Shown here: piece after piece, positions 3,021 through 43,654 of the stretch | Position numbering within the stretch: the stretch's first letter is position 1 | Layout of the letters: every line of letters starts with the position of its first letter | Assembly (NCBI GenBank): GCA_011389855.1 | Contig: JAABTM010000006.1 | Location: forward strand, 1 to 46,340 | Direction of reading: 5' to 3' | Source: Desulfobacteraceae bacterium | GTDB taxonomy: Bacteria; Desulfobacterota; Desulfobacteria; Desulfobacterales; JAABSP01 | DNA length: 46,340 bases | The notes under the pieces: model-generated | What the model was told of the DNA's origin: nothing | Seen by the model: only the letters and a program-made list of their open reading frames with translations | The model's database searches: none | Position numbers and translations under genes: made by a program

Positions 3021-3049
3021 TAACTACTGTTTTTATGATCGAAAATCAA
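3021..3049 (-). promoter_or_regulatory. Candidate promoter for tRNA-Thr
   Basis: On the minus strand TTGATT (3049-3044) and TAGTTA (3026-3021) are 17 bases apart, with the tRNA 5' end at 3005. The -35 element overlaps the first codons of the divergent mfd gene. Confidence 0.5.
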
Positions 3050-6535: not shown

Positions 6536-6537
6536 AA

Positions 6538-8290: not shown

Positions 8291-8303
8291 GGGCAAATCC
8301 GCC

Positions 8304-9656: not shown

Positions 9657-9660
9657 CGTC

Positions 9661-10434: not shown

Positions 10435-10443
10435 GGAGACGTC

Positions 10444-11478: not shown

Positions 11479-11562
11479 GGGGCGTGGGATTGAAATTCGG
11501 TTTGGGAATGGGAATGCGTGATGCGCGATCCGCTTTTCCGGTTGACGAACCGTCGCTTGAAG

Positions 11563-11624
11563 CAATATCCGTGAATGAATGAAGAATTCAGTCGGTTTTA
11601 CAGAGAATTCGTTCACGGATATTG
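11563..11624. repeat. Inverted repeat between core block and island
   Basis: CAATATCCGTGAA at the left end matches the reverse complement of the right end (TTCACGGATATTG). The match extends imperfectly inward through GAAT and GAATTC. There is no T-run, so it is not an ordinary terminator. About 35 bases further on, a C-rich/G-rich hairpin (11661-11685) precedes the ribosome site of the next gene. Either could be the remains of a small mobile element at the island border. Confidence 0.6.
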
Positions 11625-11717
11625 GATTTTCACCGATAGCCCACCCCCACCCCATCGTCCCCCCCTCTCCTCTCAGGGGAGGGGGCCGGGGGGAGGGGTT
11701 TAAAGGAGACCCCAACC

Positions 11718-13460
11718 ATGCAATACCCCCTCCCCGAATCCATCGGCAATCCGGACCTTCTCGCAGGCCGCGAAAAGGAATTCGCCCTGTTTAACAAATG
11801 GATATCCCGGATTCCAAAGCGGCTATCCAAATCAAGGGCCATCCTGGCCCGGCGCAAAAGCGGGAAGACATCGTTTTTGCAGCGCATTTTCAACCGATTG
11901 TGGAGCGAAAACGGAGAGGTGATCCCATTTTACATCAATATTTCGGAAAAGAAGATGTGGCTGCCGGATTTCGCCGAACAGTTTTATCGCGCGTTTGCGT
12001 CCCAGTACATTTCTTTCCTGGAACGAGACGAGGCAATGGTCAGAGAACCGCTGTCGCTTGATGCGATCAGGCAGTATGGGCTCGATAATGGCAACAACTC
12101 CCTTGTCAAGGATATCGACTTGATTCGCCATTATCGGGAACAGGGGAGTTTCGATCTGGCGTGGGACACCGCCAGCGGGGCCCCCCATCGCCACGCGGGC
12201 GTTTCCGGCGTCTCTTTTCTGGTCATGATCGACGAATTCCAGAACACCGGCGAATACATTTATATGGATGAGCACCACCAGCACGTTGACAACTCCATCC
12301 CCGGCACCTGGCACGACCTGTCCGAATCCAAACTCGCCCCCATGCTCGTTACCGGATCTTATGTCGGCTGGCTGATCAACATCATCGACACGTATCTGGA
12401 GGCCGGGCGGTTAAAACGGTACATGATGAATCCGTATCTTGAGCCGGAAGCCGGGCTCGAGGCGGTTTACCGCTACGCGGCCCATTACGAAGAATCCATC
12501 ACCAATGTAGCCGCCTTGCAAATCAACCGGTTGTGCATGTCCGACCCGTTTTTTATTTCCTGCGTGATCCAGAGCGATTTCGAAGGCAAGAACCTGACTT
12601 CGGAGGAGGGCGTGATCAACGCCGTCCATCACGAAATTACGGATCGGGCTTCCGAGATGTCCATGACCTGGGGCGAGTACATCGAATTGTCCTTAAAGCG
12701 GATCAACACCGTCAACAGCAAACACATTATGCTGCACTTGAGCAAGCACGCCGATCGGGAATGGACGCCGAGGGAATTGAAGCAAGAGCTAAGGCTTGAG
12801 ATCGATGAAAAGGAAATCAAAAAACTTTTGCAAAACATGGTCAAAGCCGATTTGATTCAGCGGGGCGGTTCGGACATCGATTACCGGGGTCTTACCGACG
12901 GCACGCTGGCGCTGATTCTCCGTCATCGGTTCGAAAAAGAGATCGCCACCTATCAGCCCAATGTGGAAACGACGGACCTGAAACAGGATTTTGGCGATGA
13001 AATCAAGCGTTTGAAAAAAGAAAAGCGGTCCCTGCGGGGGATGGTCAACCACCTCAGCGGCATGATGGCCGAATATATGTTATTCAACGAGTTCAGAAGC
13101 AAAAAGCGCTTCCGGCTTTCCCGGTATTTTGAAAACGTAAACCCTGACGTTGAATTGAACATCACCGATGTCGTCATGCGGACAAAATTTGAACGTCCCG
13201 ACGGCAAAGCGATGGAAATCGACGTGCTGGCCACATCGGCCCGCGCTTGGCTTCTGGCCGTGGAGGTAAAGAAAACCAAGGCGCCGGTGGGATTGCCGGC
13301 TGTCGAGGATTTCCTGGAAAAGGTCCGGGTTTTCGCCGACCTGCGGCCGGACAATGTTGTTCTGCCGGCGTTCTTTTCCGTGGGCGGTTTTACGGAGGAT
13401 GCCATGCGGTTTTGCGAGGAAAAGGGGATTGCGGTCGCCACTAGGATTGAGATATTTTGA
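11718..13460 (+). CDS. STAND-like ATPase fused to a PD-(D/E)XK nuclease-type domain
   Basis: This 580-residue protein resembles archaeal-type ATPases. A P-loop reads ARRKSGKTS (residues 44-52; the usual first glycine is alanine), and a Walker B segment reads FLVMIDEFQNT (near 168-178). A winged-helix-like region follows (about 344-385, EWTPRELKQELRLEI). The C-terminus contains EIDVLA, then AVEVKKTK (about 500-521), the D...ExK pattern of PD-(D/E)XK nucleases. Related proteins are usually uncharacterised and common in mobile regions. GGAGACC lies before the ATG. The gene is less GC-rich than the core block. A defence role is plausible from location only. Confidence 0.75.
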   Translation: MQYPLPESIGNPDLLAGREKEFALFNKWISRIPKRLSKSRAILARRKSGKTSFLQRIFNRLWSENGEVIPFYINISEKKMWLPDFAEQFYRAFASQYISFLERDEAMVREPLSLDAIRQYGLDNGNNSLVKDIDLIRHYREQGSFDLAWDTASGAPHRHAGVSGVSFLVMIDEFQNTGEYIYMDEHHQHVDNSIPGTWHDLSESKLAPMLVTGSYVGWLINIIDTYLEAGRLKRYMMNPYLEPEAGLEAVYRYAAHYEESITNVAALQINRLCMSDPFFISCVIQSDFEGKNLTSEEGVINAVHHEITDRASEMSMTWGEYIELSLKRINTVNSKHIMLHLSKHADREWTPRELKQELRLEIDEKEIKKLLQNMVKADLIQRGGSDIDYRGLTDGTLALILRHRFEKEIATYQPNVETTDLKQDFGDEIKRLKKEKRSLRGMVNHLSGMMAEYMLFNEFRSKKRFRLSRYFENVNPDVELNITDVVMRTKFERPDGKAMEIDVLATSARAWLLAVEVKKTKAPVGLPAVEDFLEKVRVFADLRPDNVVLPAFFSVGGFTEDAMRFCEEKGIAVATRIEIF

Positions 13461-13626
13461 CGGACCTATCCCTTTGCACCCGCCGTCTTTGTTGAGCATT
13501 TATCAGGAAATGGTCGTATCACCGGTCGATTTGCTGAAAAACCATGCTCTCAAAGTGATAAAAAGCGCGGTTCACTTGATAAACAACCAAAAGAAGTTAC
13601 AGTTCTTAGCGTGTATAATATGTCCT

Positions 13627-14598
13627 ATGCCACTATTTGACGCCTACATCTTCGCCGATTGGAGCGCCGCCAACAGCCCCGGACCCGGACGCCCGTCCGC
13701 CAACGCCGTATGGGTCGGCGAATGCCTCCCGCAAAAGGATCATCAACAGGAAACCTATCATCGAACCCGGCGCAACGGCGCTGACCATGTCGCCCATATC
13801 CTGGAAGACCATGTCAGTCACGGCCGCAGAGTTCTGGTGGGGTTCGATTTTTGTTACGGTTATCCCGCCGGTTTCGGCAAGGCGCTGGGGCTGCCGTCCG
13901 GTCCTGAATCCTGGTGGTGGATCTGGGCCCAACTGGCCGACAGAGGTCGGGACTCGGAAACCAATGTCAACAACCGGTTCCATGTCGCTGGAAAACTGAA
14001 CGGAATCGTGGGCGATGGTCGGCCCGGCCCGTTTTGGGGTTGCCCCGCGGGAAAGGACATTCCTAACTTACGGCCCCGGTCGCCGGGATTTCCCTTTCGC
14101 GCCGCGAACGGCGTCTCGCTGGAAAGGCTTCGCATCGTCGAAACCCGTCTGTCAGGAGTCCAGGAAACCTGGGGGCTTTATGGTCCCGGACGGGTCGGCG
14201 GCCAAACCCTGACAGGACTTCCCTGTGTTTATGGGCTGCGCAAAAGGCCGTTGTTCCGTCGCTGTAGCCGCGTCTGGCCGTTTGAAACCCGATTCACGGA
14301 AGTGCTTCCGGCTGATGAACGCCCATTCATCCTGCACGCTGAAGTCTGGCCCGGCGTCGTGGAAACGCGCTTCAAGGAACTGATAAGGGCAGCCCCCTCC
14401 CTGATCAGAGACAGGGCCCAAGTCAGGGCGCTTTGCCAATGGGCCTCCGAATTGGACGACCAAAACGCCCTCGGCCGGTTTTTCGATGCGCCGGAAGGCT
14501 TAACGTCCCAACAGCTTCGGGGTTGTATGGAGGAGGAAGGGTGGATTTTGGGGGCGGCATTAAATGATAGTATGCTTGCAGGGCAATATGTTTCATGA
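13627..14598 (+). CDS. Uncharacterised protein of a family often labelled CbiG
   Basis: The 323-residue protein carries the family landmarks YIFADWSAAN at the N-terminus, RVLVGFDFCYGYPAGF (about residue 75), NNRFHVAGKLN, PFWGCPAG and RVWPFETRF. Many databases name this family cobalamin biosynthesis CbiG, but there is no other cobalamin gene here and no CbiG motif I recognise, so the name is probably a carried-over error. Acidic residues after beta strands suggest an RNase H-like fold as in DUF429, an inference. I chose the ATG at 13627; upstream codons look non-coding. A TATAAT at 13614-13619 leaves almost no leader. The stop overlaps the next start (ATGA), so the gene is translationally coupled to the helicase. 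A fossil relative lies at about 19.9 kb. Confidence 0.65.
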   Translation: MPLFDAYIFADWSAANSPGPGRPSANAVWVGECLPQKDHQQETYHRTRRNGADHVAHILEDHVSHGRRVLVGFDFCYGYPAGFGKALGLPSGPESWWWIWAQLADRGRDSETNVNNRFHVAGKLNGIVGDGRPGPFWGCPAGKDIPNLRPRSPGFPFRAANGVSLERLRIVETRLSGVQETWGLYGPGRVGGQTLTGLPCVYGLRKRPLFRRCSRVWPFETRFTEVLPADERPFILHAEVWPGVVETRFKELIRAAPSLIRDRAQVRALCQWASELDDQNALGRFFDAPEGLTSQQLRGCMEEEGWILGAALNDSMLAGQYVS

Positions 14599-17500
14599 AT
14601 AAAAAACAGAAAAAGATCGCGTTGAAGGCTCTCCAAAACTTGCGTTTGCGCCTTCTGGATCTCACAGCCCGGAATCGTCTGATTAATTTCCGTCATACAA
14701 AAACAGGAAGTTTGCGCATTATCGATGCGTTGCCGGATCAGTTGGTTGCAACATTGCTGTCTGAAACTGAAATGCGATTTCTGCCAGTCTCAGAGCCAAC
14801 CCGCGAGGAACTGGTTAATTCGGGTCATATTGAAATTGACGAAGACACGGGGCAGGAGATTTCTTTGCAGAAAGACCCCTCTGCTGAGGAATGGGCAAAG
14901 CAATTGGGACTTAACACTTCCTATGAGGTTCCGTCGCCTGAAACCGGGACAACAGGCGTTCAACATGCGCCCGCCGCAATGCAAACATTGCTCTACCCTT
15001 ATGAATTGGAAAGCCGGCTCAAAAGTCTGACAAGGGTTTCTGAATCCGCTATCCAGGAAATGGGGGCCAATATTCTGTACATGGGTTTCGGATTTTTAGA
15101 GTGGTTTGAAAATGCCAGTGACAATTCCCGCATTGCGCCATTGTTTTTAGTGCCGACACGTCTAAAGAAAGGGCGGTTGAATCCACAAACCAGAACCTAT
15201 GAATACGCCTTAAAATACTCCGGCGAAGACATCATTGCCAACCTTTCTTTACGGGAAAAGCTCCGGGCTGATTTTGCCATGGCTTTGCCGGCGTTAGATG
15301 AGAGTACAAATCCTGAAGCCTATTTTGAAGAGGTGGTGGAATTGATTAAGGCTAACCAGCCGCGCTGGCGATTGCGTCGCTTCATCACGCTTACATTGCT
15401 GAATTTCAGCAAGCTGCTGATGTACCTTGATCTTGATCCCTCTCATTGGCCGAAGGATGCAAATATTGTCGATCATTCGTTAGTCGGGCGTTTTCTAATC
15501 GGTTGCGACGCAGACCAAAATCAAGGGGAGCCCAACGGCAGTTTTGAGTTTTGGGAAGAACATTCCATTGACGATCTGGAGGATGTCCACGCGAAGTACC
15601 CCTTAATTTATGATGCCGATAGCTCCCAGCATAGTGCTCTAATCGACGCAGTGGATGGAAAGGATTTGGTAATTGAAGGCCCGCCGGGGACGGGAAAATC
15701 ACAAAGCATTACAAACCTGATCGCCGCGGCCATGGCCCGGGGTAAAAAAGTGCTTTTTGTCGCCGAAAAGCTGGCGGCCTTGCAGGTGGTGCGCCGTCGA
15801 TTCGATGCCGCTGGTCTGGGACAATTCTGCCTGGAATTGCATAGTCACAAATCTCAAAAGCGGAAGATGCTGGATGAGATCGAGGCTCGTATGAACAATC
15901 ACGGGCGTTTCCGAATGCCAAAAGACATTGAACTTGATATCGTCCGTTATGAAGAGCTGAAAAAAAGTTTGAAAGATTATGTGGAGCGAATCAATCAGCC
16001 CTGGAAAAATACCGGGCAAACATTGCATGACATCTTTATGGCAGCCGTTCGCTATCGCAAGGAAATCGGCGCCAATCCGGAGGTGCTGCATCCAGAAAAC
16101 TATGACGGCGATAGTTTGGGTCGCGACGTCCAGCGGCGCATGGCGGACCAGCTCGATGCATTTTGTAAAATCTATCAGGCGGTAACAGATCAGCTCGATG
16201 ATGCTTCAACATTACAACAGCACCCTTGGCATGGTGTACGCAATTCCGATCTTCAAATATTTGATTCGGATCGGGTTCAGGCAGCATTGAACAATTGGCA
16301 ACAATCTCTCCAGCTTTTGAGTGAAGAAAGATCAAAGATAGCGGAAGTGTTGGATTGCGGACGGAGTGCCATCGCGGATAGCTTGAATGAAATTTCGTTG
16401 TTGTTGAATGATCTTGAAGGACTGCCATCTCTCAAAGGCAATGAAATACTGGACCTGTTGCCGGCGCTGCAAGGCGCCGTTCTGGACGAGGCGCATCAAT
16501 GCATAACACTTTTTGAAGAAATCCAGTCGCTTTACGCCGATCTCCAAATGCAAGTCGGGGTAGAGGTGTTGCAGGATCTTTCCGTTGTTGACAGCTTTCT
16601 TGATGGAAGTGAACAATTGGCCCAGCTTGTAGGTCCGATGGTCGAGTTGGGTGCGTTAGCAGAGACCATAAACCGGCTGACGGCAATGCGGGACCAACTG
16701 ACAGACCTGGAAGAACCGCTTCAAACAATTCAGGATATTGTGGGAGAAAACGCTGCCGCACACCTATTGCCTACTGAAGCAGGGCTTTTAGAGTTCAGGG
16801 TTTTCGTTGATCTGGTTTCTGGTCTTCATCCATCTTATTGGAAACTTCGCGATGAGCGGTTCGACAATGAGGAGATGGATGAATTGCTGCCCAGCCTTCG
16901 GAATGAACTCAACCGGCTTCATGCTTTGCGTGATGAATTAAGCAGCGTGTTTCGGCTTGATTCTTTACCTGAGCATAGTGAATTGAGGCGAATCAGGGAA
17001 GACATCGATGCCGGAGGGTTTTTTCGCTGGTGCAATAGCAGTTGGCGGTCTGCTCGCAAAGAGGCGCTCAATCTCGCAGAGGATAAATCGATACGATTGG
17101 CCAGACTGCGTTCTCTGATAGAAAAAGCAGAGGATTTTTTGGCAATGCGCCGGAAATTTGAGGAGAATAATCACTATAAAGAAGTATTCGGCGATTATAT
17201 GAAAGGGCTTGAAACAGATCTTAAAACCCTGGAATCATTGCGTGAGTGGTATAAAAGTGTGCGGCGGCAATATGGTTTGGGATTTGGACCAAAAGTTGCT
17301 CTTGGTAACGCCATTATCGAATTGCCGACGGAAATTGCCAGAGCGGTGCGTTCGTTGTCCGAACAAGGCGTTCAAAAACAATTGACGGATTTGCTGGATG
17401 ATCTCGAAACGCTCAAAAAAATATTTTCACCGGTTTCGGAACTGACCAATATCACAACACTGTTAGCGGGCCAGGAAGGCATGATTTCACGTCTCCTTAC

Positions 17501-19742
17501 ATCAGTGAATGATGCGTTGTTATCTTGCAGGCCCCTGGCCATTGACAAAGCGATGTCAATGGCGGATCTGGCTGATCGCATAGAACGCCTCGACTTGCTG
17601 AAAAAAGCTGTCGGGAAATGGGAAGCCGCTGATTATAACAACAGACTATTCCAGGGTCGCGTTTATTTGACGCTTGGAGTTTACGCCGACAATGACAATT
17701 TTTTATCCGTGATGCGAAATACGCTGAAAGTTGCGGGTTATACTGATCGGCAATTGCATAACGACCAAGTGCGGCAATGCATTTACGCCCGCCCCGAATC
17801 CCCCACCTTTGACAATTTAAAGGACGTTTCATCGGATTTGGGAAAACAAATGGAAATTCAAGAGACCAGATGCAAAGATTTTTGCCGATTGGTAGCGTTG
17901 GATCTCGACGACTGGATGAAGGCGTCGGGCGATCGGCTGGAAAGCCTTATCGAGAGGAACAACCGCGCGCTTCAAAGCAGCGAGAGCTTGCAGAATTGGC
18001 TTGATTATGCACGGGTGCGGGATCAAACCGAAACCATGGGGCTTGGTAAATTGGCAACAGCGATTGAACAAGCGGATATTAAAATCGATCAATCTGATAC
18101 GGCGTTCAAGGCGGGACTTTTTGACCTTCTGTCTCGCGAGATACTGCGAGAACAGCCGGAATTGGGCCGGTTTTCCGGCCGGAATCAGGAAGCCCTTCAA
18201 AAACAGTACAGGCAATATGACAACCAGCTAAAAAAATTACAGTGTGAGAAAATTGCCTGGCAGATCGACCAAGTGAGCATTCCGAAGGGGGCGTGCCATG
18301 GCCCTGTGAGCAACTACTCAGAGCTTTGCCTGATTGAGCATGAATGCAGCAAGAAAAAAAGACATATCCCTATACGACAACTTTTGCATAGAGCGGGGGG
18401 CGCGTTGGCAGCTTTGAAACCCTGTTTTATGATGGGGCCGATGTCGGTGGCCCAATATCTGGCGCCCGGCAACATTGAATTTGACCTGATCGTTATGGAT
18501 GAGGCTTCGCAGATCAAGCCGCAGGACGCGCTGGGGTCAATTGCGCGAGGCGAACAGTTGGTGGTTGTCGGAGATCCCAAGCAGTTGCCGCCTACCAGCT
18601 TTTTTGAGCGTGTTATTGATGATAACGAAGAAGATCCGACAACAATCGAAGAATCAGAAAGTATTTTAGACGCAACATTGCCGATGTTTCCAATCAGACG
18701 ACTTCGTTGGCATTATCGATCCCAACACGAAAGCCTTATTGCGTTTTCAAATCACTCATTTTATGATGGAAATCTAGTGCTGTTTCCATCGCCTTATAAA
18801 AAAACAGACGCCTATGGCGTAAGATATGAAAGGATACAGAACGGCTGCTTCGTCAACAGACGGAATAGAGAGGAGGCGAAGGTTATCGCAGAAGCTGTTA
18901 GAGAGCATTTCAGGCTTCGGACAAAAGAATCTTTGGGCGTAGCGGCAATGAGCGCAGAACAGCGTTTGCAAATTGAAAGCGCAATTGAAATATTAGCTAA
19001 AGAAGACAGCATGTTTCAGGAATGGCTGGAAGAAGACGGACGAAGGGACGACCCCTTGTTCATTAAAAATCTGGAAAATGTTCAAGGCGATGAGCGAGAT
19101 GTGATTTTTATTTCGATGACGTATGGGCCAAAAGAACCAAATGGGAAAGTTTTTCAGCGTTTTGGTCCAATAAACTCTGAAGTGGGCTGGCGTCGTCTGA
19201 ATGTGCTTTTTACTCGCGCGAAGAAACGAATGCATGTTTTTAGCTCTATGGGATCGGAGGACATTGTTGCGGACTCGTCAACAAAGCGCGGCGTAAAGGC
19301 TCTTAGAGATTTTTTGGCATATTGCGAAACTGGCATTTTACATACAAACGAACAAGAGACGGCGCGCCTTCCGGATAGTGATTTTGAAATCGCGGTAATG
19401 GCGGCGCTGCAAGACAAAGGCTTTGAATGCCTTTCCCAGGTCGGCGTTGCGGGATTTTTTATTGATATAGCGGTTCTTGATCCTGGCAATCCAGGACGCT
19501 ATCTGATGGGCATAGAATGTGACGGCGCCACCTATCATTCAGCAAAATCAACGCGAGACCGAGATCGACTACGGCAGAAAATCCTGGAGCGGCTTGGATG
19601 GCGAATTCGCCGGATATGGTCGACTGACTGGTTCAAAAATCCTCACGCGGAGCTTCAGCCAATTATCCGGGAATTGAACTCGTTAAAAACCAAAAGAGTG
19701 AAAAAAGTTGAGAAGAAAATAGAAGCAAAACACAAAAGATAG
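14595..19742 (+). CDS. DUF4011-type SF1 helicase with Vsr-like (MTES_1575) nuclease domain
   Basis: This 1715-residue protein starts with a DUF4011-like region (LRLRLLDLTARNRLINFRH). It has a Upf1-type SF1 motor split by a long helical insert: Walker A GPPGTGKS (about 363), DEAS (about 1301), GDPKQLPPTSF (about 1325) and RRLNVLFTRAKKRM (about 1530). The C-terminal nuclease-like domain (about 1596-1695) contains DIAVLD, LMGIECDGATYHS, RDRDRLRQKILERLGW and RIWSTDWF, the MTES_1575 Vsr-related fold. Single large proteins of this kind have been reported as phage-defence genes; I recall the name Hhe but cannot check it. GC content is clearly below the core genes. The normal C-terminal tail appears out of frame just downstream. 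Confidence 0.88.
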   Translation: MNKKQKKIALKALQNLRLRLLDLTARNRLINFRHTKTGSLRIIDALPDQLVATLLSETEMRFLPVSEPTREELVNSGHIEIDEDTGQEISLQKDPSAEEWAKQLGLNTSYEVPSPETGTTGVQHAPAAMQTLLYPYELESRLKSLTRVSESAIQEMGANILYMGFGFLEWFENASDNSRIAPLFLVPTRLKKGRLNPQTRTYEYALKYSGEDIIANLSLREKLRADFAMALPALDESTNPEAYFEEVVELIKANQPRWRLRRFITLTLLNFSKLLMYLDLDPSHWPKDANIVDHSLVGRFLIGCDADQNQGEPNGSFEFWEEHSIDDLEDVHAKYPLIYDADSSQHSALIDAVDGKDLVIEGPPGTGKSQSITNLIAAAMARGKKVLFVAEKLAALQVVRRRFDAAGLGQFCLELHSHKSQKRKMLDEIEARMNNHGRFRMPKDIELDIVRYEELKKSLKDYVERINQPWKNTGQTLHDIFMAAVRYRKEIGANPEVLHPENYDGDSLGRDVQRRMADQLDAFCKIYQAVTDQLDDASTLQQHPWHGVRNSDLQIFDSDRVQAALNNWQQSLQLLSEERSKIAEVLDCGRSAIADSLNEISLLLNDLEGLPSLKGNEILDLLPALQGAVLDEAHQCITLFEEIQSLYADLQMQVGVEVLQDLSVVDSFLDGSEQLAQLVGPMVELGALAETINRLTAMRDQLTDLEEPLQTIQDIVGENAAAHLLPTEAGLLEFRVFVDLVSGLHPSYWKLRDERFDNEEMDELLPSLRNELNRLHALRDELSSVFRLDSLPEHSELRRIREDIDAGGFFRWCNSSWRSARKEALNLAEDKSIRLARLRSLIEKAEDFLAMRRKFEENNHYKEVFGDYMKGLETDLKTLESLREWYKSVRRQYGLGFGPKVALGNAIIELPTEIARAVRSLSEQGVQKQLTDLLDDLETLKKIFSPVSELTNITTLLAGQEGMISRLLTSVNDALLSCRPLAIDKAMSMADLADRIERLDLLKKAVGKWEAADYNNRLFQGRVYLTLGVYADNDNFLSVMRNTLKVAGYTDRQLHNDQVRQCIYARPESPTFDNLKDVSSDLGKQMEIQETRCKDFCRLVALDLDDWMKASGDRLESLIERNNRALQSSESLQNWLDYARVRDQTETMGLGKLATAIEQADIKIDQSDTAFKAGLFDLLSREILREQPELGRFSGRNQEALQKQYRQYDNQLKKLQCEKIAWQIDQVSIPKGACHGPVSNYSELCLIEHECSKKKRHIPIRQLLHRAGGALAALKPCFMMGPMSVAQYLAPGNIEFDLIVMDEASQIKPQDALGSIARGEQLVVVGDPKQLPPTSFFERVIDDNEEDPTTIEESESILDATLPMFPIRRLRWHYRSQHESLIAFSNHSFYDGNLVLFPSPYKKTDAYGVRYERIQNGCFVNRRNREEAKVIAEAVREHFRLRTKESLGVAAMSAEQRLQIESAIEILAKEDSMFQEWLEEDGRRDDPLFIKNLENVQGDERDVIFISMTYGPKEPNGKVFQRFGPINSEVGWRRLNVLFTRAKKRMHVFSSMGSEDIVADSSTKRGVKALRDFLAYCETGILHTNEQETARLPDSDFEIAVMAALQDKGFECLSQVGVAGFFIDIAVLDPGNPGRYLMGIECDGATYHSAKSTRDRDRLRQKILERLGWRIRRIWSTDWFKNPHAELQPIIRELNSLKTKRVKKVEKKIEAKHKR

Positions 19743-34966: not shown

Positions 34967-35104
34967 CCGAACCCCGCCATCTCTCCGCTTGAACGCCCCA
35001 CGCCCGAATTCCGTTTGTGATCCTTCCGCGGATATGATACAGTTTTTCCCCAAAAAAACGGCTGCTGTCGAATCATGCGACGACTATCAACACGGAGGAA
35101 CGCC

Positions 35105-38100
35105 ATGCGGATCAAAGGAGAACTTTTAGCCGAATCGCCCATCTACCGGGGCAACGCCCGAAAAACCCTGTTTACCCGGGACGGGGACGGATCCCACCGC
35201 CTCGTCTCCCTGGCGGGCGAGGTGGGGGGAACGGCTCAGTCACTCATGGACGCCTTCATCGGCCAGTCCAAGAACGGCAAGAACATCGGACTGCTGAACG
35301 AACTTTGGCGCCGGCTCTACGGCGCCGCCCTGCCCGGCGGGCTCATCCGCCAAGTGGAGTGCAAGCTCCAGAAAGACAGCTACCCCCGGAACAATTTCTT
35401 CGACATGCGCATGGGCATCCGCCTCAACGAAGACCGGTGGGCCGCCGAGGCCAACGCCAATTACAAGATGGAGACGATCCTGAGAAAGAGCGTCTTCGAC
35501 TTCTCCCTGGAGGTGGCCGACGACCTCCTGGACAAGGACGGCAACCGGAGCCGCATCTACTATCTTCTCCAGGAACTCAGAGAGGGCCGGTTCTGGTTCG
35601 GCGCCGGGAAGAGCAAGGGGCTGGGTCGGCTCCGGCTGCTGACGGATCTCCCCATCAAAGCGCCGGAGACTCCGCCGAAACTCTCGGCCGGGGCCAATCA
35701 CCTCCGGATCGACCTGGCCTTCGACGCCGAAAACCCCCTCCTGGTGGGGTGGAACTGGGGCAAGATCGACCCCCACACCGCCGCCTTCCCGGCCATCGAA
35801 GGCCGGCTTCTGGTGGAGGCCATGAAGGACATCCCGGCCTCCATCCGCCAGCGGCTGGAGATGGTCCTGGGCGGGGCCATCCTCAGCACCGACGACTGGA
35901 AGGGGAAGCTGGCGGAATTCCTGCCCCGGATCGTGGCCATCTGGCTCAAGGAGCAGTCCGCCGGCAGCGCCGAAGGCCACCTGTTGCCCGAGGCGGCAAT
36001 CTCCAAGCTGAGCAAGGGCAAGCACGCCCTGACCAAAAAGCTCCTCAACAAGATCAAGCCCTTCGCCGGCCAGATGTTCCCCTCGGAAGAAGCGGCCGAC
36101 GCGGCATTCGCCGAGGCCCTGGGCAAGAAGGCCAACATGTCCAAGCGGGTGACGGCCCAGCTGGAGCATGTAAAGATGGAACAGCAGGATCTGAACCGCG
36201 ACGCCTGGCGTGAGGTGGCCGACGGTCTGGGGTTGGATCGAAAGCTGGGGGACGATCTGAAGGACATCCTCGACAACGAGGACGCCATCATCGAAAAGCT
36301 GACCCCGGCGATCAGTTCGGCGCTGCCCCGGCTCCACGAACAGGTGGACCAGCAGGTCAAGCTCCTCCAGAGCGACGCCTGGGTGGATGCCGAGATCAAG
36401 TCCCGGGAAGAGCACCTCCAGATCAAGACCCTGCTCAAGGAGGGCAAGATCACCGAATACCAGTGGAACGATCCCGGCATGCCCCCCGAGGGGATTCGCT
36501 CCGCCACCTGGCGGGAATTCCTCGACGCCCACAGTCGGGTCCGCTTCCGCCACATGCTCAATGCCCAGAACCTTAACAAGAGCATCGTCAACGACAAGAA
36601 CCAGATCGAATTCCTCAAGACCTACCGGGACCGGACCCGGCAGGAGCTGGCCCAGCCCCGCCACATCGACTTCCGGGCCGGCGGACCGGGAAACCGGGAG
36701 ATCTCGAAAAAATACGGCAAGCCCTACGACACGATTTTCATGCGGATGCTGTCCTGGGCCCCGTCCCAGTCGGAAAAAGGGGCCTGGGAGATCTACATCC
36801 CCGGCGGCACCCTCAAGGGGGCCTTCCGGAAGCGGGCCTCACAGGCCCTCAAGACGTTGTGGGGCGAAACCCGGAAGACCGACGAGGCCCTGACCCGGCT
36901 CTTCGGCGCCCAGGGCCGGCGGGGCATGGTCTTTTTCTCCGACGCCTACCTTGTCGACCCCGACGCCCCGGACAGCGCCTGGTGCTCCATGGACGGCGTG
37001 AAGATGAACCCCACCACCGGCCAGCCCATCGAATCGGCCAAGCACGACTATCTTTACGCCTACGGCAAGGCTCTCAAGTTCGGGGCGCGGCTCGACATCC
37101 AGGACATCCGGGAAGGGGATCCGGACATGCTCTCCATCCTGTTCCATCTCATCGACGATTACCGGCGCGGGGACATCCCCATCGGCGGGGAGAAGACCGC
37201 CGGTTTCGGCTGGACCGCCGGCTCGGTCTCCCGGCTCCAGTGGCTCGCGGGCGACCCGTCGGGGGTCGGGAAGACGCTGTTCGGAGACCGGCCCACGAAG
37301 CCCTCGGGCCCGTGGCGCGCCATTGTCCTGGAGGGCGACGAGGCGGAATCGGCCCTCAAGCCCGCCGAGCCCATCGCGACCGAGGGCAAGGGCGTCTCCA
37401 AAACCCCGCCGGTGGCCAACGAGGGGTTCATTTCCCACCGGGCCTTTGGCGGATACTGCGGCACGCTCACCGTGGACGCGGAACTCCTCACCCCCATGAA
37501 CGTCCGGGAGAGCGGCGAACCCTCCTTCACCGCCGATCTGGACGGCCAGAGGGTCAACGGGTGGGATTTCTTCTCCATGTCGCCCCCCGAGGCGGCCAAG
37601 CGGGAGAGCGACCGGCAATACGCGCTGCCGGGGCGGAGCCTCAAGGGGATGATCCGCCACATCTATTCCATCGCCACCGATTCCCGCCAGGAGAGCGGGG
37701 CCATCGGCCGCCTCAACCCCGCCGAGAGCCTCTTCGGCTGGGTGGGGGACGGCCCCAACCAGGCCCTCATGGGGCGGGTCTCCGTGACCACCGCCCTTTT
37801 CGACGCCCCGCAAAAAGAACCGGTCTGGTTCAAGGTTCCCTATCCTTATGGCGGATGGCGGTTCAAGGGCGGTCAATGGAAAGAGACCCCCGGCGGCCAG
37901 GCGGACCCCACCTTCATCGACGGCCAGTGGCGTATCTTTCCCCACGCGCCGCTGGCGCCGGCGGCCGACGAAAAGACGGATTTCTCGCCGGACACGGTCC
38001 AGGCCAGCTATTTCCGGGCCCTGATGCCCGGCGAGCGGGCCCGGTTCACGATCCGGTTCTGGAACCTGATGGAAGAGGAGCTGAAGCGGCTGATCTGGTG

Positions 38101-38335
38101 CGTGGCCCTGGAACCGGAGATGGCCCATAAGATGGGCAACCACCGGTACCTGGGCTTCGGCAGCCTCCGGCTCCACATCGCGGAGGAGAGCTTTCTCATC
38201 GACTGGGACAAGCGGTACGCCGGCGAGAGCGCCGACCAGTGGCGCCGGCCCCTGTCGGTTCGGGACTATTTGGATCCCCAGACCATCCGCCACCACGACA
38301 AGCTGAAAAAGACGCTGGATGCTGGCGCGTTATGA
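35105..38335 (+). CDS. Triple-RAMP (Cas7-like) fusion protein, gRAMP-like
   Basis: This 1076-residue protein contains three Cas7/Csm3-Cmr-type RAMP domains. RAMP 1 (about 1-185) starts GELLAESPIYRGNARKT and ends in glycine loop GAGKSKGLGRLRL (about 165). A largely helical region (about 230-515) follows. RAMP 2 (about 520-716) has YIPGGTLKGAFRKRA, FFSDAYLVD and GGEKTAGFGWTAG (about 693). RAMP 3 (about 776-1040) has LPGRSLKGMIRHIY, LFGWVG and NHRYLGFGSLRL (about 1010). Such domains form the crRNA-binding backbone of type III effectors. Fused RAMPs are known from type III-E Cas7-11, which is longer. GGAGGA precedes the chosen ATG; an ATG 30 bases upstream lacks a site. No cas10, cas5, cas1/2 or array is seen. 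Confidence 0.85.
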   Translation: MRIKGELLAESPIYRGNARKTLFTRDGDGSHRLVSLAGEVGGTAQSLMDAFIGQSKNGKNIGLLNELWRRLYGAALPGGLIRQVECKLQKDSYPRNNFFDMRMGIRLNEDRWAAEANANYKMETILRKSVFDFSLEVADDLLDKDGNRSRIYYLLQELREGRFWFGAGKSKGLGRLRLLTDLPIKAPETPPKLSAGANHLRIDLAFDAENPLLVGWNWGKIDPHTAAFPAIEGRLLVEAMKDIPASIRQRLEMVLGGAILSTDDWKGKLAEFLPRIVAIWLKEQSAGSAEGHLLPEAAISKLSKGKHALTKKLLNKIKPFAGQMFPSEEAADAAFAEALGKKANMSKRVTAQLEHVKMEQQDLNRDAWREVADGLGLDRKLGDDLKDILDNEDAIIEKLTPAISSALPRLHEQVDQQVKLLQSDAWVDAEIKSREEHLQIKTLLKEGKITEYQWNDPGMPPEGIRSATWREFLDAHSRVRFRHMLNAQNLNKSIVNDKNQIEFLKTYRDRTRQELAQPRHIDFRAGGPGNREISKKYGKPYDTIFMRMLSWAPSQSEKGAWEIYIPGGTLKGAFRKRASQALKTLWGETRKTDEALTRLFGAQGRRGMVFFSDAYLVDPDAPDSAWCSMDGVKMNPTTGQPIESAKHDYLYAYGKALKFGARLDIQDIREGDPDMLSILFHLIDDYRRGDIPIGGEKTAGFGWTAGSVSRLQWLAGDPSGVGKTLFGDRPTKPSGPWRAIVLEGDEAESALKPAEPIATEGKGVSKTPPVANEGFISHRAFGGYCGTLTVDAELLTPMNVRESGEPSFTADLDGQRVNGWDFFSMSPPEAAKRESDRQYALPGRSLKGMIRHIYSIATDSRQESGAIGRLNPAESLFGWVGDGPNQALMGRVSVTTALFDAPQKEPVWFKVPYPYGGWRFKGGQWKETPGGQADPTFIDGQWRIFPHAPLAPAADEKTDFSPDTVQASYFRALMPGERARFTIRFWNLMEEELKRLIWCVALEPEMAHKMGNHRYLGFGSLRLHIAEESFLIDWDKRYAGESADQWRRPLSVRDYLDPQTIRHHDKLKKTLDAGAL

Positions 38336-39194
38336 TTGGCTCCGCCGGTGCCGGAAGGGGAGCGAACTGCTGGCGACCTTAAACCTGGCGGCGGCCCGGC
38401 CCGAGCTTTTCAGTCCGGACAGCGGGCCCGGGCCGCCCCTGACCCTGTTCCACCGCCCCTGCCGCCGATGCTGGATCTATCCGCCCGCGGACGGGGACGG
38501 ATCCCCCTACTGCGCCGCCTGCCACGCCGTGATCACGGGCGAACACGACGCTCGGGGGCACGTTCGCCGCACCGTCCTTGTCTGGGGTTTCGTCAACCGG
38601 GTTCCGGACCGGCTCCATCCGCCGTCGTCGTCGGACTGCCAAATCCGCGGCGTCCATGTGGCGGACGACCAGAGGTTTCTTCTGGCCCTGGATCGCCGGG
38701 CACTCAAGGTCTGGCTCCAGGAACTGCTCCTCTACCACGGGACCGGCCTCAAGGGGCTGCTCCAGATTTTTCCCACCACCGGCGACAGCCCCAGGGGATG
38801 CATGGGGGACGTTCTGGCCAAGGCGGCCCATCTCGAGGCCCGGTATCCGGCGGACATGTTGCGGGTCCGGTTTTTTTCCAATGCGTATCATCTCTTTGCC
38901 GCGGACCGGCAAGGCGAAGAGGCCGGCCCCGTTTTCGATGCGACCGAGTTTCTCCGGTTTCTGGAGATGGCGGCGGTGTTCCGGTCCCTGCTCCGGCCCG
39001 AGGGGCAGCAGATGCTCCACGAGCTGTTCGACCTGACGGACCCGCAGGAAGAGCGGTTCTACTGGGGCCGGTTCATGGGGTTTCTTTCCCCCGAGGCCCG
39101 GGACATGCTCGACGCCTGGAAGATTCGCCAGTGGCCCAAACCCCAGGTCCGGCTCCTCTACGATTTGCTCGATTATGTCGTCTATACGTTTTAA
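38319..39194 (+). CDS. Zinc-finger protein of the RAMP operon (unknown function)
   Basis: This 291-residue protein has one likely zinc site: CRRC and CYAAC-like CAAC about 15 residues apart (near residues 49 and 68). The remainder is mainly helical and rich in Arg, Leu and Trp, with no enzyme motif I recognise. Its start overlaps the end of the RAMP fusion gene by 17 bases, and its end overlaps the next start by 20, so translation is coupled on both sides. That tight packing suggests a dedicated subunit, for instance a small effector subunit or RNA-binding adapter. It does not look like Cas10, Cas5, Csm2/Cmr5 or any Cas7-11 partner I know. Confidence 0.7.
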   Translation: MLARYDWLRRCRKGSELLATLNLAAARPELFSPDSGPGPPLTLFHRPCRRCWIYPPADGDGSPYCAACHAVITGEHDARGHVRRTVLVWGFVNRVPDRLHPPSSSDCQIRGVHVADDQRFLLALDRRALKVWLQELLLYHGTGLKGLLQIFPTTGDSPRGCMGDVLAKAAHLEARYPADMLRVRFFSNAYHLFAADRQGEEAGPVFDATEFLRFLEMAAVFRSLLRPEGQQMLHELFDLTDPQEERFYWGRFMGFLSPEARDMLDAWKIRQWPKPQVRLLYDLLDYVVYTF

Positions 39195-40173
39195 TCTCCT
39201 CCGGTATCTCATCGCCCTGAGGGTCTCCGCCCCCCTGGTCCGGCTCCTGGACCATCCGGCTGTGGAATTCTCCCTGGCCCTGGGCACAGCCATCGCCGAC
39301 GGGCTTCCCACGTCCGAGGCCCGGACGTGGCGGAAAGCCCTGGCCAACTGGGACCCCTGTTTCAACAGCCAGTCCAGGCGGGGGATCCCGCTGCTGGGCG
39401 CCAAGGGGTTCCAGGGACCGCCGGACATTTCCTGGCCCATCGACGCGGTCCTTTTTTTCTATCCCCACAAACGCCACTACGGCCGGGGGGAGCCCATTCT
39501 CTGGGAATTGAAACTTTTGGGCGACGCCGCCGATCACGCCTTCTTCCTGGAGGTGATCCTGCCGGCACTGGAGACACTGGGCCGGCAGGGGCTGCCGGAC
39601 CGGCAGTACGCCCACTGCCTGTGGGGCCATTTCGACGTCGATTCGGTCTACGTCGCCTCCGGGGACCGGTGGAACCCCCTGGCCCGGGAGGGACGGCTCG
39701 ATCTGGGATACCGGCCCGCCCCCGATCAATGGGCCCGGGGATGGGCGGAACATCCCGAAGCCCGGTCGAACCGCCGCTCCCTGGCCTGGCTGACCCCGGT
39801 GGAACTCCAGCCGGGCCGGAGCCTCTACGAACCGCCGGCGGACGCGCCTTTGCCGGGCCACATCCTGGAGGCATTCACCCATCGATTGAGCGCTTTGCTT
39901 TTCGGGCGCCATTATGATATCGATGCCTTCTGGTCGATGCTGAACGACAGGGAGGCCCTGGAATTCATGGCCGCCTCCCGGGAGGCGACGGAAATCTGCG
40001 TGGCGCGGGACGACGTGGCCCGGGTGTCCAACCCCTGGCCCGGGCGATGGACGGGGCTCCAGGTCTTCGACCGGCCGGTGTCGGAGGCGCTCCTGGGCTG
40101 GCTGGCACTGGCATCCCTGATCCACATCGGCCGGTACACCCATTTCGGCTGCGGGACCTTCATCATGGACTGA
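39175..40173 (+). CDS. Cas6-like RAMP protein (PF10040 type)
   Basis: This 332-residue protein has the two RAMP halves of CRISPR_Cas6 family PF10040. The N-terminal half contains YGRGEPILWELKLLGDAA and LPALETLGRQGL, the family's conserved strand-helix. The C-terminus ends with LASLIHIGRYTHFGCGTF, the glycine-rich loop GxxxTxFGxG. Cas6 enzymes cut CRISPR precursor RNA. The catalytic histidine cannot be assigned by eye, and without an array the substrate is unknown. Its start overlaps the zinc-finger gene. A divergent RNA-binding role is possible. Confidence 0.75.
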   Translation: MSSIRFNLLRYLIALRVSAPLVRLLDHPAVEFSLALGTAIADGLPTSEARTWRKALANWDPCFNSQSRRGIPLLGAKGFQGPPDISWPIDAVLFFYPHKRHYGRGEPILWELKLLGDAADHAFFLEVILPALETLGRQGLPDRQYAHCLWGHFDVDSVYVASGDRWNPLAREGRLDLGYRPAPDQWARGWAEHPEARSNRRSLAWLTPVELQPGRSLYEPPADAPLPGHILEAFTHRLSALLFGRHYDIDAFWSMLNDREALEFMAASREATEICVARDDVARVSNPWPGRWTGLQVFDRPVSEALLGWLALASLIHIGRYTHFGCGTFIMD

Positions 40174-40210: not shown

Positions 40211-43200
40211 ATGAACACAAAGCGGCTCTATCTCTGGTCCGTCATCGGCGGCTTTCTGGTGATCGCCATCGTCTTGGGACTGGCCTGTTACCCGTATTTC
40301 CAGAAAGACGACGACGCCCTCCACATCGCCCTGGCCTGCTCCATGACCGGGGAGAGCGCCGGCGTGGGCAACGCCTTTCTCCAGGGCATCGAACTCTACC
40401 TCGACCGGGTCAACCGCCAGGGCGGGGTGAACGGGAAGCAGGTGGTCCTCGACGTTTACGACGACCGGAACAGACCGGAACTGGCGGAAAAGCGGGCCGC
40501 GGATATCGTCGAGGATGGCCGGGCCGTGGCGGTGATCGGCCATTACTACAGCAGTTGCTCCATCCGGGCCGGGGAGATTTACAAGACCTACAAGGTACCG
40601 GCCGTCAGCCCCGCGGCCACCAACGTCAAGATCACCCAGGACAACCCCTGGTATTTCCGCACCATCTTCAACGACCGGTCCCAGGGCCGGTTTCTGGCCA
40701 CCTACGCCAACAAGGTTTTCGGGTACAAGACCGCCAGCATAATTCACGAAAACCAGGAGTACGGCGCCTACCTCGCCAAGGTCTTCGAGCAGACCTGCTC
40801 GGCCCTGGACGTGGAGGTGAAGTACAAGTGGGGGTTCGATGCGAAGGACGACCTGCTCGACCAGAACCTGATCCAGATCGTCAACGAACTCCAGTACAAA
40901 CCCGACGCCGGGGCGATCTTTCTGGCCACCCACGCCCCCGAGGGGGCCCGGCTGGTCCGGCTGATGAAGGACAGCCTGGTGGAAAACCCCATCATGGCCC
41001 CCGACGCCTTCTCCTCCGAGTCCTTCCGGGATATTTTCAGGGAATTTCCCAAGGAGCGGACCAATCCCGGTTTCTACACCGACGGAATGTACGTGACCAC
41101 GCCGCTCATCTTCGACACCACCAACGAACAGGGGCTCCAGTTCAGGGAGGCATATATGGACGCCTACGGCGAGGAGCCGGGATGGCATTCGGCCTTTGCC
41201 TACGACACGGCCATGATCCTGGTGGCGGCCCTGGAAAAGACCGGCGTCGCCGGGCGTCCGGAGACGGTGGAAACGGACCGGGAGAAGATCCGCCGGTTTC
41301 TGGCCAACCTGACCAACCCCTACGACGCCATCGAGGGGGTCACGGGCTACAATTACTTCGACGATAAGGGCGACTCCCAGAAGCCCATCTTCATCGGCGT
41401 CTACCGGCGGCAAAACATCGTCTCGGCCATGACCCAGTTCCGCCCCATCCCCAACCTCAACGACGTGCCCAATTTCGACAAAGCCGTGAAGGAGGGGCGC
41501 ATCCTTCTCTTCGACGGCCGGTATTCCTATAAGATCAACGTGGTCTACACCGGCATCCGGATCAATTCCATCACCGACGTGGACCCTGAAACCTTCAACG
41601 CGACCATCGATTTCTACCTCTGGTTCCGGTACCGGGGGGACATCGATCTGAAGAACATCGAGTTTCTTAACGCCCTGGAGCCGGTCCGGCTGGGAGAACC
41701 GGTCCGGGAGCAGATCGAGGGGGATCAGGTCTACCACCTTTACCATGTGAAAGCGCCCTTCCAGTCCGATTTTCTGCCCGGCCAGCACATCTTCGGGCAG
41801 CACATCCTGGGGATCAGGTTCCGGCCACGGGGCCTCGACCGGAACAACCTGATTTTCGTCAAGGACGTCCTGGGGATGCGGTTGAAAAAAGGCGTCTCCC
41901 CGGCGGAGAACCTGCGGGAAAACGGGGTGATGGCCTCCACGGAAGGATGGCGGATTTCCCGGGCCTGGTTCTTCCAGGACATCGCCGAGAAGGACTCCCT
42001 GGGCGACCCCGATTACCTTCACCTGCCCACCGGCGCCCTGGAATTCTCCCGGTTCAACGTGGGGATCCGCATCAAGCCCGACCGGTTCTCCCTCCGGCGG
42101 GAGGTCCCGGAAGCCTGGGCCGGGTGGATGCTTTTGATCGCCGCCCTGGTGAGCCTCTTTTTGTCCCAGTCCATCAAGGGGCGGCTGCCCCGGGTCGTCT
42201 CCCTCCGGCTGAACCCCAAATCCAAGATCCTGTGGGGGCTTCAGATCCTGGTGGCCTCGGTTTTGCTACTGTCCGCCGAGGTCTACCTTCTACAGCAGAT
42301 GGGGCCGCGCCTCAACGCGACTTATTTCGAGACGGTCCGCACGGTTTTCGACGTCCTCTGGTGGCTGGCGGCGGCCCATTTTCTCTCCGTGGGGCTGGAG
42401 CGGTTCATCTGGGTCCCGCTGGAGGAGCGGACCGGGCGGGACATCCCCCATATCGTCCGGAACATCATCGCCTTCATCATCTATATGATGGCCCTGTTCG
42501 CCATCGTGGCCTTTGTCTTCGACCAGAAGCTCACCAGCCTCCTGGCCACCTCCGGGGTCATCGCCATGATCCTGGGGCTGGCCATCCAGATCAACATCGC
42601 CAATATTTTTTCGGGAATCGCCATCAACCTGGAGCGGCCCTTCCGCATCGACGACTGGGTCAAGATCGGAAGCTTCACCGAAGGCAAGGTGGTGGACATC
42701 AACTGGCGCACCACCCGGCTCCTGACCCGGGACCGGACGATCCTCTCCATCCCCAACAGCCAGGCCTCGGAGTCCTCCATCGAGAACTTCAGCTTTCCCA
42801 ACGACACCTATTTCAAGTATTTCACCGTCCATGTGGAGCCCCATCACGAGCCCGAGCGGGTGAAGAAGGTGCTGCTCAACGCGGCCCTGGCCACCGACGG
42901 CGTGGTCTACGACCCGCCCCCGGCCACCCGGTTTCTGGGTCTCACCGACGAAATGACCGGCCCCAGCCGGGCCTGGGCCGCCAACTACCTCATCTCGGTG
43001 GTGGTCCGGGATTACGGCATGAAGTTCGCCCACAACGAGATGATCTGGCTCAACGTCTGGACCCACCTCCATCACGCCGGCATCCGGCTCCTCACCGAGC
43101 GCCACGAGATTCAGATGGCCATAAAAGGCAAAAAGGAGACGGTGGCGCGGCCCCTTTCCCTCCTCCAGGAGATGGACATCTTCGACCCATTTTCCCACGA

Positions 43201-43654
43201 AGCCAAGATCTATCTCAGCAAACGGATGAAGCGCCGCTGGTACGACCCGGGCCAGGAAGTGGTCCGGCAGGGGGACGCCGGCGACTCCCTTTTCGTCATC
43301 GCCGAGGGCGTGCTGAGCGTCCGGGCCAAATCCGGCGAACGGGAAGCCATGGAAGTGGCCCGGCTGGGCGCCGGCGATTTCTTCGGGGAGATGGCCCTGC
43401 TCACCGGCGAACCCCGCACGGCCACCCTCGCGGCGGTTACCGACACCCTGCTCTACGAGATCACCAAGGAGGACATTTCCCCCCTTTTGGAGCGCCAGCC
43501 GGAGATCTCCTGGTCCCTCACCGATGTCCTGGTCAAGCGGAAACAGGCCACTGCCACCGCCACCGCCAAAACCGTCTCGGATCGCGAAGCCGAAAAGACC
43601 CTGTCGGCCCAGATTCTGGGCAAGATTCAGAAGTTTTTCGGGTTTAGAAGCTGA
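40211..43654 (+). CDS. Fusion: periplasmic binding protein, Cys-loop-like domain, MscS channel, cNMP-binding domain
   Basis: This 1147-residue protein has an N-terminal membrane anchor (about 8-27), then a branched-chain-amino-acid-type periplasmic binding domain (about 37-410, IALACSMTGESAGVG, SPAATNVKIT). Next, about 440-625, comes a beta-rich domain whose YTGIRINSI...ETF...DFYLWF pattern resembles the ligand-binding sandwich of bacterial Cys-loop channels. Membrane helices begin near 634. An MscS pore and beta domain covers about 745-975 (LGLAIQINIANIFSG). A cNMP-binding domain (about 988-1100) has FFGEMALLTGEPRTATL with the phosphate-binding Arg. It should be an inner-membrane channel gated by periplasmic ligand and cytoplasmic nucleotide. 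It lies 38 bases after the Cas6-like gene, possibly co-transcribed. Confidence 0.85.
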   Translation: MNTKRLYLWSVIGGFLVIAIVLGLACYPYFQKDDDALHIALACSMTGESAGVGNAFLQGIELYLDRVNRQGGVNGKQVVLDVYDDRNRPELAEKRAADIVEDGRAVAVIGHYYSSCSIRAGEIYKTYKVPAVSPAATNVKITQDNPWYFRTIFNDRSQGRFLATYANKVFGYKTASIIHENQEYGAYLAKVFEQTCSALDVEVKYKWGFDAKDDLLDQNLIQIVNELQYKPDAGAIFLATHAPEGARLVRLMKDSLVENPIMAPDAFSSESFRDIFREFPKERTNPGFYTDGMYVTTPLIFDTTNEQGLQFREAYMDAYGEEPGWHSAFAYDTAMILVAALEKTGVAGRPETVETDREKIRRFLANLTNPYDAIEGVTGYNYFDDKGDSQKPIFIGVYRRQNIVSAMTQFRPIPNLNDVPNFDKAVKEGRILLFDGRYSYKINVVYTGIRINSITDVDPETFNATIDFYLWFRYRGDIDLKNIEFLNALEPVRLGEPVREQIEGDQVYHLYHVKAPFQSDFLPGQHIFGQHILGIRFRPRGLDRNNLIFVKDVLGMRLKKGVSPAENLRENGVMASTEGWRISRAWFFQDIAEKDSLGDPDYLHLPTGALEFSRFNVGIRIKPDRFSLRREVPEAWAGWMLLIAALVSLFLSQSIKGRLPRVVSLRLNPKSKILWGLQILVASVLLLSAEVYLLQQMGPRLNATYFETVRTVFDVLWWLAAAHFLSVGLERFIWVPLEERTGRDIPHIVRNIIAFIIYMMALFAIVAFVFDQKLTSLLATSGVIAMILGLAIQINIANIFSGIAINLERPFRIDDWVKIGSFTEGKVVDINWRTTRLLTRDRTILSIPNSQASESSIENFSFPNDTYFKYFTVHVEPHHEPERVKKVLLNAALATDGVVYDPPPATRFLGLTDEMTGPSRAWAANYLISVVVRDYGMKFAHNEMIWLNVWTHLHHAGIRLLTERHEIQMAIKGKKETVARPLSLLQEMDIFDPFSHEAKIYLSKRMKRRWYDPGQEVVRQGDAGDSLFVIAEGVLSVRAKSGEREAMEVARLGAGDFFGEMALLTGEPRTATLAAVTDTLLYEITKEDISPLLERQPEISWSLTDVLVKRKQATATATAKTVSDREAEKTLSAQILGKIQKFFGFRS

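Follow-up and report, generated by a model that had tools for sequence, protein, structure and literature searches.

The gene at positions 40211..43654 (+ strand) of contig JAABTM010000006.1 (Desulfobacteraceae bacterium, assembly GCA_011389855.1; the whole 46,340-nucleotide stretch analyzed is called the window below) raises the question of whether one bacterial protein can join the sensing head of a pentameric ligand-gated ion channel (pLGIC, or Cys-loop receptor) to a pore of the MscS family. It consists of a single intact open reading frame (ORF) that starts with ATG, has no internal stop and encodes 1147 amino acids; relatives of equal length identify it as a complete four-module channel gene. 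The window is one contig of a host assembly of 5.26 Mb in 569 contigs. The reading that we consider probable, if far from certain, is that the protein is an MscS channel of the bacterial cyclic nucleotide-gated (bCNG) kind whose periplasmic half came from a pLGIC fused to a periplasmic binding protein (PBP), and that an amino-acid-like ligand gates it from the periplasmic side and cAMP or cGMP from the cytoplasm.

Three of the modules are recognized by Pfam well above the gathering cut-offs: a periplasmic LivJ/LivK-type binding domain (residues 36–415, 40316..41455; Peripla_BP_6, 3e-37, 129.4 bits at residues 38–378 versus a cut-off of 31.7), the MscS beta-domain (residues 796–861, 42596..42793; MS_channel_2nd, PF00924, 3e-18, 66.0 bits versus 20.2) and a cyclic-nucleotide-binding domain (CNBD; residues 1009–1095, 43235..43495; cNMP_binding, PF00027, 2e-22, 79.5 bits versus 27.5). 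Sequence matches in the PDB were to LivJ/LivK-type binding proteins, to YnaI (residues 739–860, E 7e-15) and to PKA, PKG, SthK and MloK1. These scores and the intact ORF confirm, for these three, the module order of the original prediction (binding protein, Cys-loop-like domain, MscS pore, cyclic-nucleotide domain). The phosphate-binding cassette that it had described as intact is so: FFGEMALLTGEPRTATL, at residues 1057–1073 (43379..43429), contains both Glu1060 and Arg1069.

No Pfam or NCBIfam model matched residues 430–640, and a PDB sequence search with the profile of the MscS-linked second domain alone returned no pLGIC chain. This search being uninformative, we relied on a fold search and on sequence intermediates. 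Residues 424–652 were modeled with AlphaFold from an alignment of 28 MscS-linked sequences only, which contained no pLGIC sequence (mean predicted local distance difference test (pLDDT) 74.5). The best 50 PDB structural matches listed by Foldseek were all nicotinic or GABA receptor (Cys-loop) ectodomains or acetylcholine-binding protein (AChBP), with E values of 6e-8 to 1.6e-7 and a probability of 1.00; the TM-scores were moderate (0.49–0.54 for the query, about 0.5–0.59 for isolated ectodomains). The intermediates were provided by PBP-fused relatives of about 740 amino acids that end in a four-helix membrane part (best Neur_chan_memb match 1.3e-6, best Neur_chan_LBD match 0.014). Their profile matches ELIC, GLIC and GABA-A receptors at 1e-16 to 1e-10 (ELIC and GLIC at 1e-13 to 1e-10), and the MscS-linked second domain aligns over its full length to their ectodomain (hhalign E 2e-64, 38% identity). 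Outside the order, in 395 genomes across the phylum, the MscS-linked profile found classic pLGICs of about 354–404 amino acids at 1e-15 to 1e-11. By fold model and sequence intermediates, residues 430–625 (41498..42085) are thus a pLGIC extracellular beta-sandwich, and the ~740-residue proteins belong, on their sequences, with the PBP-fused pLGICs that Tasneem et al. described in 2004 (PMC549065).

The likeness to GLIC proposed in the original prediction for residues 430–630 is therefore borne out, by the fold and through the intermediates that reach ELIC and GLIC. Indeed, the VYTGI...F-L-W segment that it had singled out (residues ~447–471) aligns to strands of ELIC, and W471-F472-R473 at its end is invariant in the 28 MscS-linked relatives. 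GLIC, ELIC and DeCLIC share with residues 430–625 the ectodomain fold and the conserved core; unlike them, the window protein has no M1–M4 domain, and the N-terminal domain of DeCLIC is not described as a PBP (PMC12664993). One might object that residues 430–625 form an unrelated beta-sandwich that merely resembles a Cys-loop receptor domain, since the TM-scores are moderate and the MscS-linked profile alone reaches no pLGIC chain in the PDB. This is barely credible, given the hhalign match over the whole domain to proteins with a genuine pLGIC four-helix membrane part, and given that only Cys-loop ectodomains appear among the listed structural matches.

The genes of the ~740-residue PBP-fused pLGICs at L073, L075, L076, L078, L079, L080, L081 and L082 occur mostly as tandem pairs beside a protein of about 910 amino acids with Peripla_BP_6 and SBP_bac_5 domains; two different pLGIC subunits together with a double binding protein suggest a heteromeric pLGIC system that senses peptides or amino acids. 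At L085 (genome G186), a stand-alone PBP-like gene adjoins an unfused pLGIC-type ORF, a split form of the same pairing.

How, then, did a pLGIC ectodomain come to precede an MscS pore? PBP-fused prokaryotic pLGICs (Tasneem et al. 2004, PMC549065) have a type I PBP followed by a Cys-loop ectodomain, in the same order as here, and the ectodomains of those found in the host's order are 28–39% identical to that of the window protein. Their effector, however, is a four-helix transmembrane (TM) pore, whereas here an MscS pore and a CNBD follow, and the Pro-loop proline and acid and the pre-M1 Arg are lost; no Neur_chan_memb match, the sign of a pLGIC M1–M4 pore domain, was found in any of 24 full-length relatives, which have the MscS pore and CNBD instead. 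In an ectodomain tree, the 28 MscS-linked sequences formed one clade (support 100/100), and the same clade was recovered (support 98) when the tree was repeated without the membrane columns, which alone could split the groups. Because the MscS-linked ectodomains form one clade, the sequences indicate that the pore was swapped once. The nesting of this clade inside the pLGIC type is not firm (support 95/70), the trimmed tree being an unrooted two-way split; that the pLGIC type was the ancestral source is argued mainly from how widely pLGIC-type ectodomains occur. The PBP tree gave largely the same picture as the ectodomain tree, except that the PBPs of four MscS-linked proteins fell with the pLGIC type with modest support.

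The two groups were then compared residue by residue in a joint alignment of 28 MscS-linked and 20 pLGIC-type rows. The core is kept in both: W471 in 28/28 MscS-linked and 19/20 pLGIC-type sequences, F472 in 28/28 and 20/20, R473 in 28/28 and 19/20, and S613 in 28/28 and 20/20. Few sites separate the two groups consistently, most of them in the Pro-loop and the pre-M1 stretch. The Pro-loop proline, present in 20/20 pLGIC-type sequences, is found in 4/28 MscS-linked ones; the window protein has I-F-G in a degenerate Pro-loop/Cys-loop (residues about 522–530, 41774..41800) that reads LPGQHIFGQ versus DFHxYPFDx in the relatives. Likewise, the acidic residue of this loop (Asp or Glu in 16/20 pLGIC-type sequences) is retained, as Asp, in 3/28, and the pre-M1 Arg in 1/28 versus 19/20 (10/28 have Lys); the window protein has P623 (42077..42079) at this position. 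Tasneem et al. (PMC549065) regarded the charge interaction between the Pro-loop acid and the pre-M1 Arg as a universal feature, possibly involved in gating. That this interaction disappeared at the very point of the pore exchange is the most telling sign that the coupling was rebuilt.

The architecture is not confined to one assembly. Proteins of the same length, 86%, 67% and 60% identical, occur in three other genomes, and the nearest named relatives are found in a Desulfobacteraceae metagenome-assembled genome (MAG; 86%) and in Desulfonema magnum, a Desulfatirhabdium butyrativorans MAG and Desulfobacterales bacterium HSG16 (58–59%); these relatives place the host, a sulfate reducer, in the Desulfobacterota and most likely in the Desulfobacterales. 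Relatives were searched with residues 429–663 as the query in 146 genomes, almost all of them of the host's order; the PBP, MscS and cyclic-nucleotide domains were all present in 24/24 full-length relatives, at least 24 proteins thus showing the four-module order. The same-length proteins in three genomes and the presence of all three Pfam modules in every full-length relative rule out chance or mis-assembly. Relatives fall into three size classes: about 1130–1190 amino acids with PBP, second domain, MscS pore and CNBD; about 980–1000 amino acids with the first three of these and no CNBD; and about 720–880 amino acids, mostly near 740, in which PBP and second domain are followed by some 100–130 residues and no MscS part. 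The second domain was found in some form in 29/146 genomes of the host-order sample versus 5/395 of the phylum-wide one, and among the sampled genomes the four-module architecture is confined to the host's order. The doubt raised with the original prediction, that this might be a common annotated architecture, is thereby answered: Pfam and NCBIfam hold no model for the second domain, the combination was found in one order only, and no paper found in searches of an open-access library describes it (subscription journals, preprints and InterPro lying outside that search). As far as could be searched, the joined whole is new and both of its halves are of known kinds, namely PBP-fused pLGICs and bCNG channels.

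The cytoplasmic half points to the bCNG family, which has an MscS pore and a C-terminal CNBD and is reportedly known from Caldwell et al. 2010 (cited in PMC4560390). Like bCNG channels, the window protein has the two parts in this order, here with an intact cassette; to our knowledge, bCNG channels lack the two periplasmic domains. The nearest pore relatives are stand-alone proteins of this kind, of about 500 amino acids, in the same order of bacteria (L107 and L109, for instance, have the bCNG architecture without the two periplasmic domains): the pore clade of the four-module proteins adjoins them and is separate from the order's ordinary MscS proteins (SH-aLRT support of 98 and 95, on long branches).

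The MscS TM3-type pore helix LLATSGVIAMILGLAIQINIANIFSGI (residues 774–808, 42530..42634) was located by the conservation of the relatives, the model and the alignment to YnaI, and residues A785-M786-I787, G789, N795, N798 and S801-G802-I803 are invariant in all 24. Four TM helices precede it (42110..42517; residues 634–655, 668–697, 703–741 and 747–769 in the model). Hydropathy places them at residues 632–659, 671–698 and 745–775 and does not resolve the third separately, which is thus taken from the model. With an N-terminal, N-in membrane anchor (residues ~4–30, 40220..40300; hydropathy 2.49, helix in the model), the topology agrees with two domains in the periplasm, five more helices and a tail in the cytoplasm; the strongly positive loop at residues 655–670 and the positions of the MscS part and the CNBD fit this as well. 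The tail continues from the beta-domain with the MscS alpha/beta cytoplasmic domain (residues ~862–957, 42794..43081; model secondary structure, PF21082 in 16/24 relatives) and ends, after the CNBD, in a modeled C-terminal helix (residues 1098–1142, 43502..43636) whose end is of low confidence.

The invariant pore-helix residues also bear on the idea that the protein is a receptor with a vestigial pore, signaling through partners such as neighboring chemoreceptors: they suggest that the pore is under selection. Genes for chemoreceptors (methyl-accepting chemotaxis proteins, MCPs) do lie near five independent channel loci versus 1.15 expected, and a chemotactic role for bacterial pLGICs was proposed by Tasneem et al. 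(PMC549065), but the neighboring genes differ between loci, and we regard a pure receptor as improbable.

What would the proposed channel sense? The binding domain aligns to 4gnr, 3td9 and 1usg (leucine-binding protein), and its model is matched by LivJ (TMt 0.87). All proteins listed by a fold search with the whole length were of the PBP type, so that this search speaks for that module alone. The positions of Ser79, Thr102, Tyr150 and Glu226 of 1usg, which hold the amino-acid backbone in leucine-binding protein, are occupied by S114, T137, Y184 and D265, conserved in 24/24, 23/24, 24/24 and 22/24 full-length relatives, respectively. Since these pocket residues are conserved, the ligand of the binding domain is probably an amino acid or similar. 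The domain thus resembles LivJ and LivK in its fold and in its Ser, Thr, Tyr and acidic residues for the backbone; unlike them, it is a membrane-tethered part of a channel and not a component of an ABC transporter. A neurotransmitter-type ligand for the second domain was not assumed, the data naming no ligand for that domain.

On the cytoplasmic side, Glu1060 and Arg1069 of the cassette are both kept in 21/24 full-length relatives, and class III cyclases are encoded near channel genes at L057 (histidine kinase–receiver–cyclase, 17 bp downstream), L064 (Cache–cyclase, 120 bp downstream) and L044 (divergent, two genes away). Given the cyclase density in eight of these genomes, 0.25 would be expected versus the 3 seen; these neighbor counts, like those for MCPs, are small, and the expectation assumes a gene slot of 1.05 kb. 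In the host genome, 13 matches to class III cyclases (Guanylate_cyc) were counted. Because the listing of flanking genes took ORFs from the wrong strand where contigs were GC-rich, passing over the cas genes beside the channel at L043, only flanks with a domain match were counted as evidence.

As we infer it, with ligand gating, the identity of the ligands, the direction of each effect, ion selectivity, stoichiometry and physiological role all part of the proposal, the channel would work as follows. An amino-acid-like ligand would close the LivJ-type lobe domain, and this movement would reach the pLGIC-type beta-sandwich that lies directly above the membrane, travel on through the helices newly placed between sandwich and pore, and in the end act on the MscS pore helix. 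How readily the pore opens would be set by cAMP or cGMP bound to the cytoplasmic domain. Through the open pore, ions or small solutes would cross the inner membrane, and the resulting shift in membrane potential or turgor could serve as a nutrient or chemotaxis-type signal.

Several observations weigh against this proposal. In the window, no cyclase adjoins the channel gene. Three of the 24 full-length relatives have no working cassette (deleted in L055 and L056, without its Arg in L071) and three further relatives (L065, L068 and L069) have no CNBD at all, so that the family can do without cyclic-nucleotide control. In the whole-length model, in which the binding domain reaches a confidence of around 90 and the ectodomain mostly 80–90, the pore helix is badly modeled, with a pLDDT of about 40–50 at residues 784–804. 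Moreover, MscS assembles from seven subunits and pLGIC heads from five. Given this mismatch in symmetry, the head might fail to assemble as a classic ring. Neither the mismatch nor the loss of the coupling motifs figures in the original prediction. It may be, although we hold this with distinctly less conviction than the proposal itself, that the pLGIC ectodomains sit on a heptameric MscS pore as a seven-membered ring or in an asymmetric or mismatched assembly, integrating an extracellular amino-acid-like ligand with intracellular cAMP or cGMP.

Finally, MscS-type channels, reportedly including at least one bCNG channel (Ss-bCNGa), respond to tension, so that ligand gating is not guaranteed. 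The protein might instead be an osmotic safety valve, its MscS pore opened by tension and its periplasmic and cyclic-nucleotide domains merely shifting the threshold. Its complete MscS beta-domain and pore helix would suit such a valve, as does the tension gating of Ss-bCNGa. A valve, however, needs no strongly conserved ligand-binding half of 600 residues (pocket residues in 22–24 of 24), cyclase or chemoreceptor neighbors would be superfluous to it, and several further MscS-type genes are present in the host genome. We therefore take a valve to be rather unlikely, though the most serious of the alternatives, and retain the doubly ligand-gated channel.

How ectodomain and pore communicate in pLGICs is a long-standing question, usually approached through engineered chimeras inside the family. 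Here a pLGIC ectodomain has been joined in nature, once, to an unrelated pore, and the join has been kept across a bacterial order with the presumed coupling residues lost. Desulfonema magnum, for example, whose relative at L046 has 1148 amino acids, carries both kinds of protein, and a comparison of these sisters makes the roles of the Pro-loop and the pre-M1 Arg directly testable. The protein also raises the question of whether a pLGIC head can assemble in anything but fivefold symmetry, and it provides a bacterial channel in which the ligand inputs of the two sides are separable. Were the head indeed joined to a heptameric pore and the channel responsive to both ligands, it would be a natural experiment demonstrating that sensing and pore of a pLGIC are modules that can be taken apart.

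Immediately upstream of the channel gene, a type III-I CRISPR operon (35075–40173, same strand) ends 37 bases before it, with NCBIfam scores of 1810 bits for Cas7-11i (NF049957), 385 bits for Cas10i (NF049958) and 254 bits for Cas6i (NF049959). The arrangement is kept in a genome of the same genus, G001, with about 90% DNA identity over 11 kb. One could therefore imagine an ancillary effector of the operon, its pore opened by a nucleotide signal to kill or silence the cell, the more so as PADLOC Pycsar models match the CNBD. Yet these PADLOC matches hit the generic CNBD only, periplasmic sensors would make no sense for an intracellular defense signal, and the III-I effector is not beside a channel in the other sampled genomes that carry it, where gRAMP lies on another contig or megabases away. 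Pfam and NCBIfam scans showed no CARF domain, and linkage to type III loci was seen in one genus rather than recurrently. Such a role is very improbable and was rejected as the main reading on account of the genus-specific linkage; since this linkage is absent from the other sampled III-I genomes, we treat the operon as a neighbor and not as part of the channel system. In G001 (C35:10365-13587), the Cas7-11i match is split over two frames, i.e. a frameshift or an assembly error.

Some loci of the relatives may be described in their own right. L057 (5567–18458) is an apparent operon in which two different four-module channels flank an SBP_bac_5 protein (gaps of 25 and 13 bp) and the histidine kinase–receiver–cyclase follows (17-bp gap), so that a binding protein, the channels and a source of the nucleotide are encoded side by side. 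L055 and L056 are paralogous four-module channels of one genome, in which the cassette is cleanly deleted at about residues 1050–1070; an SBP_bac_5 gene lies 303 bp downstream of L055.

In the host genome (G000), the last 133 bases of the channel gene (43522–43654) recur at 86% identity on contig C113 (L089:4163-4295), and the gene that follows them there is the MCP gene found directly after the channel in G001. This has the look of a rearrangement or insertion at the gene's 3' end, with that end present in a second copy. Farther upstream in the window, a large helicase with Cas3-like matches (3035–6535) and a 1715-residue DUF4011-AAA-MTES_1575 nuclease protein (14595–19742) suggest a defense island at 3035–19742.

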